NCBI GenBank assembly: GCA_947458545.1
Contig: CANGYH010000004.1
Location: 62,001 to 126,000 of the forward strand
Length of the DNA stretch: 64,000 nt
Source of the DNA: Cytophagaceae bacterium
GTDB taxonomy: Bacteria; Bacteroidota; Bacteroidia; Cytophagales; Flexibacteraceae
Direction: 5' to 3'
Shown: positions 58,080-64,000 of the stretch, piece by piece
How positions within the stretch are numbered: the stretch's first letter is position 1
How the letters are laid out: each line of letters starts with the position of its first letter
Translations under genes and position numbers: made by a program
The notes under the pieces: model-generated
Told to the model about the DNA's origin: nothing
Database searches by the model: none
Seen by the model: the letters and a program-made list of their open reading frames with translations, nothing else

Positions 58080-58524
58080 GCGTGTGGCTCACTTGGCAGA
58101 TGCCGTAGCGAGCCAGCCACTCGGGGCCGATGCCGTAGCCTTGCCAGAACGCCAGGCCCTTGGCGCTCAGCGCTGTCGCGCGCAGCAGCTCGGCCTTGGG
58201 GGTGGCGTTGGGGAGGTTAAGCTCATCGGCCATGGCTTTGAGCAGGGCCACAAAGTCGCGCTGGGCGTCTAGCCTATGCACGTGGGCCGCAAAGGCAAAC
58301 ACATCGCCCGTGTAGCGCTCATCGCCGTGGTCTTTGTGGAGCCAGACGTCTCTGTCTCGCCAGATCGATAGGCTGGCCTTGCGGTCGTCGTAGAAGGGGT
58401 TGCGGGCGTTGCGGCAGCGCCGCCCCAGCGGAGCCTTCAGGCCCGGCACATGGGCCAGGTAGTAGTCTAGGCCACCCCGGGTAGCGGCCAGAATCTCTGT
58501 TTTCCTATCGAGCGCAGCAGACAT
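58075..58524 (-). pseudogene. Primase-like CHC2-type N-terminal fragment, cut off by a MITE-like element
   Basis: A 149-residue product resembles the N-terminal zinc-finger region of phage or plasmid primases: CRNARNPFYDDRKASLSIW, then GDVFAFAAHVHRLD, the usual second-half motif GD.F.F. The zinc ligands are incomplete (one Cys in the first half, no CxxC after it), so it may be a divergent CHC2 domain. Primases continue with TOPRIM and helicase domains, but the frame ends in SHTR at a TAA inside the terminal repeat of MITE copy A. Iteron-like repeats lie upstream of its start. It reads as a remnant of an integrated replicon. Confidence 0.6.
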
Positions 58525-58644
58525 AGGGCTGGGGTGCTACCGGCCAGGGCCATCTGGCAGTCAGCTGGGCAAAACAAGCACCTGCGGCAAGCACTCTGCA
58601 GCATTTGGCACAAGCCTGCCCGATATAAGCCCTCCAGGGCTCTC

Positions 58645-58957
58645 CAGTAAGTAAACAGTAAGTAACCAGTAAGTAAAATAAGTTACTTACTGTGCTTTTT
58701 CTGGCTTGTAAAAGCCTGATATTCAATACTATATACCTATTCTATATACCCTATTTCAGTAAGTAGTAAGTAAATACGGTATAAACTTTAATGGTGTATG
58801 GCCGTCAGTACCCCAGGCCCCCGGCGCCACGCCTCGCACCCATCGTATGGGAAAAGTTTGGTTTGGCGTGTTTACTTACTTTGCCTACTTTTTTGCCCTC
58901 TAACCCATTGTGCATCAAAGGCTTGCGCGGTCAGTAAGTAAAAAAGTTACTTACTGA
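58645..58957. repeat. Iteron-like CAGTAAGTAA repeats
   Basis: Three contiguous 11-bp direct repeats CAGTAAGTAA(A/C) at 58645-58677, followed by an inverted copy at 58683-58692. Further direct copies are at 58757-58774 (double) and 58932, inverted copies at 58871-58880 and 58947. The last pair forms an 11-bp palindrome (58931-58941, 58947-58957). The surroundings are AT-rich (ATATACC repeats at 58730-58750). The 645 bases 58525-59170 hold no credible gene, only these repeats and MITE copy B. Confidence 0.8.
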
Positions 58958-58985
58958 AAAAAGGGGCAACCCGCCACTTGCTGAC

Positions 58986-59158
58986 GCTAAGCAAGGTCTC
59001 TGACCTTGCTTTTGGCCGCTGCAAGTCTCCGACTTGCCAAACAGACGCGGCTCATCGGTGGTGATGATTCAGGCAGAAGCTGATCTGCGATGATGCTACA
59101 ATGAATGCAAGTCAGAGACTTGCAGCGGCGGAAAGCAAAGTCAGAGACTTTGCTTAGC
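58986..59158. mobile_element. MITE-like element, copy B (173 bp)
   Basis: Same boundaries (GCTAAGCAAGG...CTTTGCTTAGC), inverted termini and centre as copy A, in the same orientation, about 907 bases further right. It ends 12 bases before the end of aspS. The two copies bracket the primase fragment and the iteron-like repeats. No clear target-site duplication was found. Confidence 0.75.
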
Positions 59159-59170
59159 GGGGGGAATGCT

Positions 59171-60907
59171 TTACAACCCCAACTCCTTCTTCAGCTTCGG
59201 TTCGATCTCGCTGGGGGAGTCTATCATTACGTCGCGGCCGGCGTTGTTTTTGGGGAAGGCGATGTAGTCTCGGATGGACTCAGAGCCGCCGAGGATCATG
59301 CAGAGGCGGTCGAAGCCGAAGGCCAGGCCGCCGTGGGGCGGGGCGCCGTACTCGAAGGCGTTCATCAGGAAGCCGAACTGGGCCTGGGCCTCCTCGGGGC
59401 TGAAGCCGAGGATATCGAACATGCGGGCCTGCAGGGCTTTGTCGTGGATGCGGATGGAGCCGCCGCCGACCTCGTAGCCGTTGATGACCAGGTCGTACGC
59501 GTTGGCGCGGACGCGGCCGGGGTCGGTGTCCAGCAGGGCGATGTCCTCGGGGTAGGGGCTGGTGAAGGGGTGGTGCATGGCGTACCAGCGGCCGTCTTCC
59601 TCGTTGTACTCCAGCAGGGGGAAGTCTAGCACCCAGCTTACGGCAAAGCTCGCCTTGTCGCGCAGACCGAGGCGGGTACCCATCTCCAGGCGCAGCTCGC
59701 CGAGGGCTTTGCGGGTTTTGGCGGCGGGCCCCGCTAGGATGAGGAGCAGGTCTCCGGGTTGAGCCTGGGCGGCTTCTAGCCAGGTTTTGAGCACCTCGGG
59801 CGTGTAGAACTTATCTACCGAGCTCTTTACCGAGCCGTCGGCCTCGTAGCGCACGTACACCAGGCCTGTGGCGCCGATCTGCGGGCGCTTTACCCACTCG
59901 GTAAGCTCATCTACCTGTTTGCGGGTGTAGCCGGCGCAGCCCGGGGCCACGATGCCGCCTACGTACTCGGCCTGGTCGAACACGCCGAAGCCGTGGCCGG
60001 CGGCCAGGCCTTTGAGCTCGCAAAACGTCATGCCGAAGCGCAGGTCGGGCTTGTCAGACCCATAGAGGCGCTCGGCGTCGGCGTAGCTCATGCGGGCAAA
60101 AGGGCGGGGCAGCTCGATGCCGAGCGTGTCTTGCCAGAGCTGGCAGATGAGGCCCTCGAAGGTGTCGAGCACGTCGTCGCGCTCCACGAAGCTCATCTCG
60201 CAGTCTATCTGCGTGAACTCGGGCTGGCGGTCGGCGCGCAGGTCCTCGTCGCGGAAGCACTTCACGATCTGGAAGTAGCGGTCCATCCCGGCCACCATCA
60301 GCAACTGCTTAAAGGTCTGCGGGCTTTGGGGCAGGGCGTAGAACTGCCCCGGGTGGATGCGGCTTGGTACCACAAAGTCGCGGGCACCCTCGGGCGTGCT
60401 TTTGATCAGCACCGGGGTCTCTACCTCTACAAAGCCCTGGCCATCCATGTACCGGCGTACAGACTGGGCGGCGCGGTGGCGCAGCAGCAGCGCCTCGCGC
60501 ACGGGGGCGCGGCGGATGTCGAGGTAGCGATACTTGGCGCGGAGGTCTTCGCCACCGTCGGCCTCGTCTTCGATCACGAAGGGAGGCGTCTTGCTCTCGT
60601 TGAGCACGTGCAGGCGCTCGGGCAGCACCTCTACGTCGCCGGTGGGCATCTGGGGGTTTTTGCTGTAGCGCTCTACCACGCGGCCCTGCACCTGCAGCAC
60701 AAACTCGCGGCCCAGGGTACGGGCCTGGGCGCGCAGGGCCTCGGGCACGTCTTCGTTGAGCACGATCTGAGTGATGCCGTAGCGGTCGCGCAGGTCTATC
60801 CAGACGACGGAGCCTTTGTCGCGCACGCGCTGCACCCAGCCGGCCAGCGTAACGGGGGTACCAACATCTGCCAGGCGCAGCTGGCCGCAGGTATGAGAAC
60901 GTAGCAT
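59171..60907 (-). CDS. aspS: Aspartyl-tRNA synthetase
   Basis: A class IIb synthetase of 578 residues, the usual bacterial length. It has the OB-fold anticodon-binding domain ([23 protein letters not shown] in outline), class II motif 1 ([21 protein letters not shown]), motif 2 ([18 protein letters not shown]), the bacterial GAD insert (about 290-420) and motif 3 ([15 protein letters not shown]). The ATG at 60907 starts at [10 protein letters not shown], the standard family start. TACTTTTG lies 11 bases upstream. The gene is divergent from the PIG-L deacetylase. Discriminating versus non-discriminating type was not determined. Confidence 0.98.
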
Positions 60908-60918
60908 AATGGAGTGTG

Positions 60919-60926
60919 CAAAAGTA
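60919..60926 (-). promoter_or_regulatory. Promoter -7 element of aspS (TACTTTTG)
   Basis: TAnnTTTG match on the minus strand, 11 bases before the aspS ATG. Confidence 0.55.
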
Positions 60927-60964
60927 CGGCTTGGGGGGCAGGCGCGGCCCTGCCCCGGCCTTGC

Positions 60965-60972
60965 TACCTTTG
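60965..60972 (+). promoter_or_regulatory. Promoter -7 element of the PIG-L gene (TACCTTTG)
   Basis: Perfect TAnnTTTG match ending 5 bases before the ATG at 60978, the same spacing as for ispG and the putative toxin gene. Confidence 0.65.
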
Positions 60973-60977
60973 CCCCC

Positions 60978-61613
60978 ATGCACAGCAACAAACAGCGCGT
61001 ACTGGTACTGGCCCCCCACACCGACGACGGTGAGCTGGGCTGCGGCGGCACCATTGCCCGTTTTTGCCGCGAGGGCCGCGACGTGTACTACGTGGCCTTC
61101 TCCATTGCCACCCGCTCGCTGCCTGCGGGCTGGGCACCCGATACGCTGGCCAAAGAGGTGGCTGCCGCCACCCAGGTGCTGGGCATCCCCAGCCAGAACC
61201 TGTTTCTGTACGACTACGACGTGCGCCGCTTTAAGGAGTTCCGCCAGGATATTCTGGAAGAGCTGGTGAAGCTGGGCAAGCAGTTGCAGCCAGACCTGAT
61301 CTTCGTGCCCAGCCCGACGGACATCCACCAAGACCACCAGGTGATCTCGGAAGAGGGCCTGCGCGCGTTTAAGAACAAGACCATCCTCGGCTACGAGATG
61401 CCCTGGAACAACCTGAGCTTCAACACCCGCAGCTTCTCCATTCTTTCCGATGAGGACGTGGCCACCAAGGTAGCGGCCCTCAGCTGCTACAAGAGCCAGG
61501 CCCACCGCCCCTACGTGAACGAGAACTTCATCCGCTCGCTGGCCACCACGCGCGGCGTCCAAATCGGCACCACCTGGGCCGAGGCGTTTGAGGTGATACG
61601 ATTTATATTCTAA
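60978..61613 (+). CDS. PIG-L/LmbE-family zinc deacetylase
   Basis: A 211-residue enzyme of the family that removes acetyl groups from N-acetylglucosamine-type substrates (GlcNAc-PI, bacillithiol or antibiotic precursors). The metal site is visible: [14 protein letters not shown] (His-x-x-Asp-like) and [18 protein letters not shown] (HxxDH-type). FVPSPTDIH and the conserved YEMPWNN segment also fit. The start ATG follows a TACCTTTG element. Neighbouring genes give no biosynthetic context, so the substrate is open. Confidence 0.88.
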
Positions 61614-61653
61614 TAAAGCAGAATAGCAGGCCTCGGAGATTACCAACGCATCC

Positions 61654-62352
61654 ATGCACCTAGCCATGCTACGCGCTGTATTTCTTTATACCTCCCTGGC
61701 CACCCTTTCCTCTTGCGCAGGCTTTTTGCCCCGGGCAGACAAGGATGTGTTTGCCGAGGGCAGCTACCGCTACCGGGTGGCGGGCCAAAGCCAAGGCCGC
61801 GTATACGTGCTGCCCTTGGCAGATACCCTGCGCCTTCGCCACCTGCCCGCCGGGCCCGATAGTGTATTGGCACTGCCTGCACATACCGGCCATACCCAGC
61901 CGAAGCGCACGTTTTACGACCAAAGTCTAGACCTTGATCTGTTTGCAGCACCGGTGCGCTACCGGCCGGCCGCGGGCCCGCATCCGCACCAACTGCGGGG
62001 CACCTTCAACGTAAATGGCTACATCGGCCTGCGGGCCGACCGCTTTGTGCTGCGCTACCGCCCTACCCCGCTGGGCCTCTACCGCCGGGTAGATCGGCAC
62101 CTGGGCTTATCGGTAGGTGGGTTTGTCGGGCTAGGCGCAGAGGGCATCCGGCCCGACTATGTGCGCCGCCCCATTGCCGCCGAGTACGATGCCCCGGTGC
62201 TATCGCGGGGGCTGGCGGTGCTGCTGGCGGTGCAACAAGGCACCATTGGCCTAATGGCCGGGCAAGACGTGCTGCTGGATGCCAACAGCCCTTATTGGTA
62301 TTACCACAACCGCCTGTGGCTGGGGCTGGGGTTGGGCATCAACCTGAACTAA
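61654..62352 (+). CDS. Predicted lipoprotein of unknown function
   Basis: A 232-residue protein starting MHLAMLRAVF with a hydrophobic stretch and a lipobox-like LSSC (Cys21), so it is probably lipid-anchored. The mature part is beta-rich with alternating Tyr/Arg strands (YRYRVAGQSQGRVYVLPLAD, FNVNGYIGLRADRFVLRYRP) and ends LGLGLGINLN, resembling an outer-membrane barrel-like C-terminus. It follows the PIG-L gene by 40 bases on the same strand. No family was recognised. Confidence 0.65.
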   Translation: MHLAMLRAVFLYTSLATLSSCAGFLPRADKDVFAEGSYRYRVAGQSQGRVYVLPLADTLRLRHLPAGPDSVLALPAHTGHTQPKRTFYDQSLDLDLFAAPVRYRPAAGPHPHQLRGTFNVNGYIGLRADRFVLRYRPTPLGLYRRVDRHLGLSVGGFVGLGAEGIRPDYVRRPIAAEYDAPVLSRGLAVLLAVQQGTIGLMAGQDVLLDANSPYWYYHNRLWLGLGLGINLN

Positions 62353-62392: not shown

Positions 62393-62836
62393 CTAATTGG
62401 TAGCACTGTCGCTACTAGTATCCGAGTGCATGATCTCCTTAATGCGGTTGCCGACCTCAACCAAGTTGAGCAAGGGCAAGATTAACGATTGCCTGTTGGA
62501 AAGCATGACCACCGAACTTGCCGTGGCCCGGATGTAGGGGTACACAATGGCCACGGAGTTTTGGTAGAAGTAGGGTGGAATATCAGCTAATGGCAGACCT
62601 GCCTGAAACTGAAAAAGGAACGACATACCCAATCGCAGTAAGGTCTGCTCTGCCTTATACGAAACCACAATATCCAGATCAAGGATAAAGCGGCCAGCTT
62701 CCACATCATAGCTTGGCAATGGCTCTATACTTACAGACAAGCCGGCAATGTCTTCCTTTTGAGGAGCCTCAAATTCTAGGTAAACGACGGCATAGTCGGC
62801 CAGGCCAAAAGGTGCAGGGTTCGAGACTGTAACCAT
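62393..62836 (-). CDS. SecB-like chaperone of a toxin-antitoxin-chaperone operon
   Basis: A 147-residue protein with the SecB fold: N-terminal beta strands (VVYLEFEAPQKEDIAG), LDLDIVVSYKAE, and the diagnostic C-terminal half FYQNSVAIVYPYIRATASSV then QSLILPLLNLVEV, equivalent to SecB's AFPFLRSYISTLT and PPVILPTINF. SecB-like proteins outside the export pathway act as chaperones that protect an antitoxin. The gene is third in a tight minus-strand operon, 16 bases after the small antitoxin-like gene. Housekeeping SecB is less likely because of this context and the lower G+C. Confidence 0.82.
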   Translation of the reverse strand: MVTVSNPAPFGLADYAVVYLEFEAPQKEDIAGLSVSIEPLPSYDVEAGRFILDLDIVVSYKAEQTLLRLGMSFLFQFQAGLPLADIPPYFYQNSVAIVYPYIRATASSVVMLSNRQSLILPLLNLVEVGNRIKEIMHSDTSSDSATN

Positions 62837-62852
62837 TTACAACCAGCAAGTT

Positions 62853-63092
62853 TTAGAAAAAAAGAACCCCGGCTGTTGAAGCACCGGGGTTTGCATATTG
62901 AACTAGAGGTTGGGCAACGAGCGTACCCACAGACTGATAGACAATGGGAGGTGAATGCTGCCACCCTCTAACCACCCGATGCACGGTGGGGCTTTGGAAA
63001 CCGCGTCCTTGAATCTCTGCCAGTTGCTGGGTGAGCTTATCCGCCGACACCTTCGCAACCAGTTCACTTACAGCTGCTTCTAACTTGGTCAT
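62853..63092 (-). CDS. Small putative antitoxin with hydrophobic C-terminal tail
   Basis: A 79-residue protein: N-terminal helix (MTKLEAAVSELVAKVSADKL), middle RGFQSPTVHRVVRGWQH, and a Gly/Ala/hydrophobic tail ending in VLFF. It overlaps the upstream gene by four bases (ATGA, 63089-63092), a sign of coupled translation. A small protein coupled to a putative toxin and followed by a SecB-like chaperone fits the antitoxin of TAC systems, where the exposed hydrophobic tail is the chaperone-addiction segment. No DNA-binding motif is evident. The assignment rests on context. Confidence 0.62.
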   Translation of the reverse strand: MTKLEAAVSELVAKVSADKLTQQLAEIQGRGFQSPTVHRVVRGWQHSPPIVYQSVGTLVAQPLVQYANPGASTAGVLFF

Positions 63093-63664
63093 GGGGAGGT
63101 TGGCTGTTGGTTGGAACTCGAAAATACACAACCAATTTTATGCAAATCTAGTGCCCTATCATGAAAAAGGCACAGCTGTGTAGGTTTTACGAACGTGAGC
63201 CGGACGCGGTTGGGCTTAATAACCAAAGCTGATCGGAGAGAGGGGTCTGTGCCTTCTAGAAACTCGTCTGTCAACGGATCGCCTTCGATTCGGATGGCTT
63301 CGTAGGGCATAAGCCCATGTTGAGAAAGAAGGACTACCACCTGTGCGAGTGTGATGAGCTCCCAGTTAAAATCTAAATGGGTAGCCAAGGCTTTGGTTGC
63401 AGCCTCAAGTTCCAGTCTTCCCAAAGGGTCAAGTAGATCCAGGCAAAGATTGTCCAGTATAAAGCTGAATTCGACAATCCGATATTGACCGCCGCACCTA
63501 CGCTGACCCCAAACATGGGCCAGGCGTATGTCTGTGTCCCACAGGTAATAGCCAGGACCCAGCCATGCGCTTTCTGATGCACAGTAGAACGGTGCCTTAC
63601 CCACATCTGTAGCTTCAGACCTCCGCTTTCGAATGGTTTGGTAGGCTGTCCTCGGCCCTTGCAT
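63089..63664 (-). CDS. Putative ADP-ribosyltransferase-like toxin (CmdT-like by context)
   Basis: A 191-residue protein. Its first half (RTAYQTIRKRRSEA, FYCASESAWLGPGYYLWDTDIRLAHVWGQ) follows the layout of small ADP-ribosyltransferase-fold toxins, in which a Gly-x-Gly-Tyr-Tyr strand is followed by a helix; FSFILDNLCLDLLD and PYEAIRIEGDPLTDEF may hold later motifs. The catalytic triad cannot be fixed by eye. The ATG at 63664 is supported by a TACATTTG promoter core ending 5 bases upstream; the longer frame (to 63991) overlaps the divergent gene and looks random. It is first in the toxin-antitoxin-chaperone operon. Function is inferred from pattern and context. Confidence 0.6.
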   Translation of the reverse strand: MQGPRTAYQTIRKRRSEATDVGKAPFYCASESAWLGPGYYLWDTDIRLAHVWGQRRCGGQYRIVEFSFILDNLCLDLLDPLGRLELEAATKALATHLDFNWELITLAQVVVLLSQHGLMPYEAIRIEGDPLTDEFLEGTDPSLRSALVIKPNRVRLTFVKPTQLCLFHDRALDLHKIGCVFSSSNQQPTSP

Positions 63665-63669
63665 GCTTG

Positions 63670-63677
63670 CAAATGTA
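63670..63677 (-). promoter_or_regulatory. Promoter -7 element of the toxin-antitoxin-chaperone operon (TACATTTG)
   Basis: Perfect TAnnTTTG match ending 5 bases before the ATG of the putative toxin. The predicted mRNA is leaderless, which would make toxin translation independent of a Shine-Dalgarno sequence. Confidence 0.6.
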
Positions 63678-63752
63678 TTTAAGCCTAAGGCATGGAGCAG
63701 CCTGCTATCGCTATCTACCCATGCCTTCCAATTAAGTACCTTGCACCCCGCA

Positions 63753-64000
63753 ATGCATACCCTGGCTTCTCTTCTGCAAGGTATAGATCTGGCCGACGCT
63801 ACCGTGGCCGGAGACCCCTCCGTGCTGCTTAGCCAGCCCGTCAACTTCGACATGGTGGCCGAAGGGCTCGGTGCCGAGGGCCTGGCCTGGGTGAAGCCGG
63901 GCAACGAAGACCGCCTGCCCGCAGGCCAGCCTGTGGCGGCCCTCGTCTGCACGCCCGAGAGCAGGGCCAAGATTGCCGACCCGGCCCGCATCCGCGCCTG
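63753..64000 (+). CDS. N-terminal part of an unidentified protein, possibly LpxD-like (3' truncated by window edge)
   Basis: The frame from ATG 63753 is open to the window end (82 residues): MHTLASLLQGIDLADATVAG, DPSVLLSQPVNFDMV, AWVKPGNEDRLPAGQPVAAL, VCTPESRAKIADPARIRA. Its high G+C, codon use and TACCTTGC element 8 bases before the ATG mark it as a real gene. The pattern (N-terminal helix, GDP turn, then a strand-rich domain ending in a 'VCTPESR' segment) resembles the uridine-binding N-terminal domain of LpxD-type acyltransferases, but the hexapeptide-repeat part that would prove this lies outside the window. Confidence 0.5.
   Translation, partial: MHTLASLLQGIDLADATVAGDPSVLLSQPVNFDMVAEGLGAEGLAWVKPGNEDRLPAGQPVAALVCTPESRAKIADPARIRA

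Follow-up and report, generated by a model that had tools for sequence, protein, structure and literature searches.

A divergent CmdTAC-type locus of a Cytophagaceae bacterium with a predicted intrinsic terminator inside the antitoxin reading frame

The closest described system to the locus studied here is the toxin-antitoxin-chaperone (TAC) system CmdTAC of Escherichia coli. PD-T4-9 is the earlier name of CmdTAC. According to an author correction and the Nature paper (PMC11618068), CmdTAC comes from the same functional screen as PD-T4-9. The E. coli antitoxin CmdA carries the ClpXP signal LAA at its C-terminus, and defence requires ClpP. For the toxin CmdT, the same paper reports a catalytic triad of H-Y-[E,D,Q]; it calls a CmdTAC locus when matches to CmdT and to the chaperone CmdC lie within two genes of each other, and regards CmdA as too variable to use for family calling. 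Its main text contains no mention of tmRNA, ssrA, terminator, nonstop or Bacteroid-.

Genes with a terminator ahead of their stop codon are known from ribosome rescue. In Bacillus subtilis, a terminator in the coding region of BrfA makes the mRNA non-stop and leads to SsrA tagging of the protein, as established with reporters, synonymous stem mutations and an smpB deletion (PMC6881298), and a similar non-stop expression is described for ArfA of E. coli (PMC8012679). Our searches of an open-access library brought up no paper presenting an antitoxin as non-stop or as tagged by trans-translation; most subscription papers were outside the scope of this search.

The window analysed is a stretch of 64,000 nucleotides of contig CANGYH010000004.1 from a Cytophagaceae bacterium (assembly GCA_947458545.1). 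It contains an operon of three minus-strand genes in the order cmdT-cmdA-cmdC (T-A-C). The features are, from 5' to 3' on the minus strand:

63670 to 63677, minus strand: promoter -7-like core TACATTTG, 5 bases 5' of the cmdT ATG (consensus match only)
63089 to 63664, minus strand: cmdT, a 191-residue toxin, likely ADP-ribosyltransferase-like (PADLOC PD-T4-9_A, AF2 model, structural matches, residue counts over 79 homologues)
63143 to 63150, minus strand: second promoter-core-like match TAGATTTG, upstream of cmdA, possibly a chance match
62853 to 63092, minus strand: cmdA, a 79-residue antitoxin (place between toxin and chaperone as in homologues; AF2 model)
62856 to 62891, minus strand: predicted intrinsic terminator inside cmdA (5' arm 62891-62883, loop 62882-62874, 3' arm 62873-62865, T tract 62864-62856)
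62853 to 62855, minus strand: cmdA stop codon TAA, 3' of the T tract
62393 to 62836, minus strand: cmdC, a 147-residue SecB-like chaperone (PADLOC PD-T4-9_C; family profile against SecB)

The cmdT stop and the cmdA start overlap as ATGA, and 16 bases separate the cmdA stop from the cmdC ATG. The Bacteroidota promoter core motif is TAnnTTTG. If TACATTTG is indeed a promoter core, which rests on the consensus match alone, the operon mRNA might be leaderless or nearly so. An earlier note on this stretch had described the three genes with their overlap and spacing, the GPGYYLW...AHVWG pattern in the 191-residue protein, the 79-residue protein with a VLFF tail and the promoter core 5 bases before the ATG. 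All of these held, the protein features at the level of sequence and the promoter as a consensus match. Its claim that the operon is lower in G+C than its neighbours held for the flanks at 59250-62249 and 63500-63999 (0.57-0.67, vs about 0.50 over the operon); positions 58500-59249 are as low as the operon. None of the eight neighbouring proteins has a PADLOC defence match. In a search for the empty site, the 232-residue downstream neighbour was found in two of ten other genomes of the family, and the upstream neighbour was absent from the stretch fetched beside it.

The cmdT and cmdC products match the PADLOC profiles PD-T4-9_A (E-value 2e-26) and PD-T4-9_C (3.4e-23), with one gene between the two matches, i.e. 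the within-two-genes rule is met. Pfam and NCBIfam gave no useful match for any of the three operon proteins. PADLOC gave no match for the CmdA of the window and none that was convincing for seven other CmdA-type proteins.

A model of CmdT was built with AF2 from 79 homologues (pLDDT 87.8). When it was compared with known structures by VIA-align, nine of the top ten rows were toxins or toxin-antitoxin complexes with Z-scores of 6.6-8.2, including MbcT (8.2), ParT (7.7), NatT (7.2), diphtheria toxin (7.2), RES and VPA0770, while rank 2 was an unrelated phage ejection protein (7.9). PARP1 and PARP2 follow from rank 11 with Z-scores of about 6. Most of the best structural matches are ADP-ribosyltransferase-like toxins. 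Foldseek alone gave no significant match to the model, the best being a NatT toxin with an E-value of 0.23. The Z-scores by themselves are middling, and the case for the fold rests on the agreement between the list of structural matches and the profile hit. An ADP-ribosyltransferase-like fold is thus the likely one for CmdT, as predicted from a model, and the activity is inferred.

In the alignment, Y40 is present in all 79 sequences and Q163 in 74 of 79. The first triad position, Q9 in the CmdT of the window, is a glutamine in 67 sequences, a histidine in 11 and an asparagine in one. Both the window protein and most of the sample thus carry a glutamine in place of the catalytic histidine; that the glutamine form is catalytically active is an inference. 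The CmdT of the window shares only about 16-29% identity with the aligned homologues, among which E. coli CmdT is not included, and sits on a long tree branch (1.55) without close kin. Exact peptide patterns of the toxin found no close relatives in genome contigs or viral contigs, and tblastn with the toxin found nothing in phages and one weak partial match in plasmids.

A profile of 21 CmdC sequences matches the SecB structure 1qyn with an E-value of 5.7e-5, and Pfam SecB matches 20 of the 21, the exception being the CmdC of the window. Because the own genome yields no Pfam SecB match, and CmdC as a query in that genome retrieves only itself, cmdC is not the housekeeping secB of this genome. 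The earlier note had named two outcomes that would refute it here, a toxin model without an ADP-ribosyltransferase fold and a SecB-like gene that is the only housekeeping secB of the genome, and neither was met.

A third possibility was that homologues of the genes do not occur together. Among 93 toxin loci from a motif scan, a SecB-like gene adjoins the toxin in 87. These loci comprise 80 from genomes (the best 80 of 147 confirmed) and 13 from viral contigs, and they were scored with profiles built from the first loci. The chaperone precedes the toxin in 70 loci (with cmdA upstream in 69), 17 have the T-A-C order and six lack a chaperone match. By profile, co-occurrence among 194 relatives is only partial, with the toxin in 14 genomes (own included), the chaperone in 18 and both in eight. 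Some of these chaperone matches lie in other parts of the genome, and at certain toxin loci (e.g. L006) an adjacent chaperone escapes the profile. In a draw over the phylum, the toxin profile matched in six of 395 genomes, again including the own genome. The PD-T4-9 profiles, the toxin model, the SecB-related CmdC family and the conserved adjacency together show that the operon is a divergent CmdTAC locus, distant from known members, which supports the earlier proposal of a distant Bacteroidota TAC system; mRNA ADP-ribosylation and phage defence are inferred.

Some further observations concern the distribution of these genes. Gene order over loci L051-L143 changes five times on the toxin tree, vs about 23 times with shuffled labels. 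The own genome carries a second CmdT-like gene (L002, G000:C6:97457-97993; PD-T4-9_A E-value 4.5e-39), followed by an ORF at 98008-98355 for a 115-residue antitoxin-like protein that was not seen in any other of the 194 genomes. A chaperone gene was not detected there within the 19-kb region fetched (L043). The GYYFW motif reads GHCFW in this copy, which may be dead or repurposed since the tyrosine invariant in the 79 homologues is lost. At L007 (also L045, G185:C190), a CmdT-CmdA pair whose CmdA ends in SSAA has no detectable CmdC in a 7.2-kb stretch.

The AF2 model of CmdA predicts three helices in residues 3-45 and coil for the remainder, i.e. N-terminal helices and a disordered C-terminus, with low scores (pLDDT 72.4, pTM 0.34). 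The C-terminus is AGVLFF, and no LAA is encoded. The last twelve codons of cmdA, encoding NPGASTAGVLFF, are at the same time the terminator, which consists of the AACCCCGGT arm, a 9-base loop, the GCCGGGGTT arm and CTTTTTTTC, followed by TAA. The stem has 9 bp and the tract is T7; the fold is -15.9 kcal/mol, with a z of -2.57 against shuffled sequences. The terminator is located 20 bases upstream of cmdC, and 11 nt separate the last G:C pair of the stem from the cmdA stop. Since the TAA lies beyond the T tract, a transcript that terminates in the tract lacks the cmdA stop. A terminator scanner with a loop limit of 8 misses this hairpin, whose loop is 9, and we used a scanner of our own together with a separate energy measure.

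A strong terminator lies entirely within the cmdA reading frame in 61 of the 97 operons whose cmdA could be identified, a set that includes the window. None was found 3' of the cmdA stop at the same junction among the operons scanned. The pattern is reversed in 561 other genes of these loci, where a terminator lies within the end of the reading frame in two and after the stop in 58. Among 186 genes closely followed by a co-directional gene, the corresponding numbers are zero and six. By the energy measure, which is independent and was applied to all 97 operons, 57 are at -9 kcal/mol or lower, where 2.3 would be expected upon synonymous recoding. When cmdA was recoded with the codon usage of its own locus, the hairpin was retained in 1.41 of 60. 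Where it was found, the terminator sits between cmdA and cmdC whichever the gene order, and no terminator was found at the C-T junction in the 70 C-T loci scanned. It occurs in many genera and also on viral contigs, and its stem sequences vary while the pairing is maintained.

The count depends slightly on definition, being 59, 60 or 61 of 97; the last adds L097, whose stop falls one base short of the distance that the rule requires. The cmdA counts exclude six loci without a chaperone match (L074, L075, L084, L115, L140, L143), three of them at or near a contig edge (L074, L075, L143). In L056 no cmdA ORF was found, and L004 duplicates L125; neither is among the 97. Nor are L002 and L007, where cmdC was not detected, or six loci with weak or partial toxin matches (L009, L012, L013, L015, L020, L021). 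Near-copies (e.g. L017/L076, L018/L124) were kept and removed only for the deduplicated counts of AA ends. The whole operon sample derives from one motif and the toxin of the window.

Three observations argue that the nucleic acid rather than the peptide is selected at the 3' end of cmdA: recoding loses the hairpin, the codons covary and the tail drifts. In the NP..S[GDE]F form of the motif, a first codon AAC, AGC or GAC pairs with GGN (Gly), and AAT, AGT or ACT pairs with GAN (Asp or Glu), so the choice between Gly and Asp/Glu follows base pairing. Counting near-copies, 31 of 32 sequences follow this covariation, and the exception has its motif read out of register. As these hairpins were found by their pairing, the set is biased and the argument partly circular; the recoding control over all 97 operons is free of that bias. 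The tail past the T tract differs between related operons. In Psychroflexus it reads FFLSKT in L076 and FFYLKCKAWKTQKEQVSQ in L077, following a one-base change in the tract, and L137 and L139 differ in the same way. In L095, L134 and L135, a change of loop length shifts the reading frame of the 3' arm (to LRVSF), and the hairpin is kept. We consider it very likely that the terminator exists and is under selection, although this is a prediction from sequence without transcript data.

The earlier note had pointed to the hydrophobic VLFF tail and to the C-terminal addiction segments of TAC systems, and had missed that the bases encoding the tail form an intrinsic terminator. A role of the VLFF tail as a chaperone-addiction segment is not supported: it is the hairpin that is selected, and the residues past it vary from one related operon to another. 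The VLFF residues are the in-frame reading of the terminator stem and the T tract.

CmdTAC operons were also seen on IMG/VR viral contigs (L131-L139), seven of nine with the in-frame terminator; they are perhaps prophage-borne.

The terminator and an encoded ssrA-like end tend to exclude each other. A C-terminal AA is encoded in 26 of 36 operons without a terminator vs one of 61 with it. With near-copies removed the numbers are 26/36 and 1/55 (Fisher p 1.4e-13), and for a terminal A they are 30/36 and 4/55. The p-value for the AA end is too small, since related rows are counted. On the trees, the switch between terminator and no terminator occurs about 8-11 times. Using supported branches only, we obtain two to three independent pairs, on average none of them in the wrong direction, which is too few for a test. 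When all branches of the toxin-plus-chaperone tree are used, supported or not, there are eight pairs, in which the AA end is opposite in three to seven (mostly six) and the A end in five to eight (mostly seven), a same-way pair being rare. In L051 the terminator and the AA end occur together. Ten operons have neither when an AA end is the criterion, and two of these (L113, L019) have weaker hairpins.

With one extra T, the tail of L055 (also L058) would resemble the L051 tail FFLCNIAA, and polymerase slippage could give two CmdA ends. Transcriptional slippage on the T tract remains possible; it is not excluded and not needed.

The own genome contains tmRNA (tag GEYSYAMAA), SmpB and ClpP. In 34 loci ARAGORN identified 32 tmRNA tags, every one of which ends in [YF]A[LM]AA. 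A tmRNA above the cut-off is present in 27 of 30 host genomes, and one of the three without it (L107) has the terminator. Some encoded ends are close to the tag of the host: L068 ends in GNYLYAMAA vs the tag GNYQYAMAA, one residue different, and L010 ends in YAMAA, as does its host tag GERTYAMAA. For CmdAs that end in LAA or MAA and have a known host tag, the third-last residue matches that of the host in seven of eight (L010, L014, L068, L082, L093, L118 and L119, with a mismatch in L066), too few for significance. Judging from sequence alone, several CmdAs that encode a degron resemble an ssrA tag, and the terminator operons appear built to receive one.

We propose, with a slight preference over the alternatives and without transcript or protein data, that the terminator acts through trans-translation and that the degron of CmdA is added in trans. 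In this model, much transcription would stop in the T tract of cmdA, giving a cmdT-cmdA message in which the cmdA frame has no stop. Ribosomes would reach the end of this message and be rescued by tmRNA-SmpB, which would add a tag ending in YAMAA to CmdA. The tag would take the place of the LAA end of other CmdAs and make CmdA a ClpXP substrate unless held by CmdC. Readthrough would give cmdC and some untagged CmdA. By analogy with E. coli CmdTAC (PMC11618068), a phage capsid protein would then draw CmdC away, tagged CmdA would be degraded and CmdT would modify mRNA. Termination in the cell, tagging of CmdA, degradation of tagged CmdA by ClpXP and shielding by CmdC are all inferred steps. The strength of termination is unknown, and coupling of ribosomes on cmdA could suppress it, in which case little non-stop mRNA would be made.

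A bolder reading, on which we would not lean to either side, is that the host tmRNA is effectively a fourth component of CmdTAC, the non-stop antitoxin message borrowing the ssrA tag of any host. As one joint claim, the module would be portable between hosts with different tags and the lifetime of the antitoxin would be tied to the state of ribosome rescue. Damage to mRNA by CmdT would stall ribosomes and load tmRNA, which could feed back on the tagging of CmdA and permit a reset.

The main rival, a possible one that may act as well, is an attenuator without a role for tmRNA, in which the terminator determines how much chaperone is made relative to antitoxin. Ribosomes at the end of cmdA would melt the hairpin, so that transcription reaches cmdC (and, in A-C-T operons, cmdT) only during translation of cmdA; when CmdT blocks translation, cmdC would be turned off and the toxin would stay on. 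This explanation is favoured by the constant position of the terminator between cmdA and cmdC, irrespective of gene order, with none found at the C-T junction of the 70 loci scanned, and by its location within the reading frame, where a ribosome can cover it. However, the attenuator alone leaves unexplained why the AA end is missing with the terminator and usual without it, and does not account for the drifting tail past the T tract.

An unlikely alternative is that the hydrophobic tail (SGFF, VLFF) is itself a chaperone-addiction segment or a hydrophobic degron, with the hairpin a by-product of codons. Tails of the FF type do recur with the hairpin in many CmdAs, and C-terminal addiction segments are known in TAC antitoxins (PMC11618068). 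However, recoding that preserves the peptide loses the hairpin, the hairpin stays when the frame of the 3' arm is shifted to LRVSF, and the choice of Gly or Asp/Glu obeys base pairing. Finally, that an ordinary cmdA merely ran into a terminator through a lost stop or a sequence error, without consequence, is very unlikely, for although terminators after genes are common (58 of 561 controls), the in-frame form is found in 61 of 97 operons vs two of 561 controls, across many genera and viral contigs, with differing stems that keep their pairing (a point that is partly circular, as the hairpins were found by pairing).

If the trans-translation reading is correct, CmdA would be the first antitoxin, within the open-access literature searched, that owes its instability to trans-translation and not to its own sequence. 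It would link chaperone-controlled phage defence with ribosome rescue and account for the many cmdA genes without an LAA end, and synonymous changes in a short stretch would be expected to turn defence off. For annotation, it would be a warning that the C-termini given for small antitoxins can be terminators translated as protein.

Compared with CmdTAC (PD-T4-9) of E. coli ECOR22 (Vassallo et al. 2024, PMC11618068), the locus shares the ADP-ribosyltransferase-like toxin, the helical antitoxin with a disordered tail and the SecB-like chaperone, the first two as predicted by models. Unlike the E. coli system, its CmdT has a glutamine for the histidine of the triad, and its CmdA has no LAA and ends in a terminator-encoded tail, which is the basis for regarding it as a variant. 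As in SecB-type TAC systems, e.g. the TAC of Mycobacterium tuberculosis, a chaperone-dependent antitoxin would adjoin a SecB-like gene; in M. tuberculosis the dependency runs through a C-terminal extension of the antitoxin (PMC6377645), whereas here the tail is encoded by the terminator. Like the genes of BrfA (PMC6881298) and ArfA (PMC8012679), cmdA is short and has its stop codon preceded by an intrinsic terminator or stem-loop, in our case as a prediction from which non-stop mRNA and tagging are inferred. Those proteins are rescue factors that accumulate when tmRNA fails, whereas CmdA is a defence antitoxin with a chaperone gene downstream. The CmdTAC type itself is thus known, and the in-frame terminator, which very probably exists and is selected, marks a widespread variant of the family.
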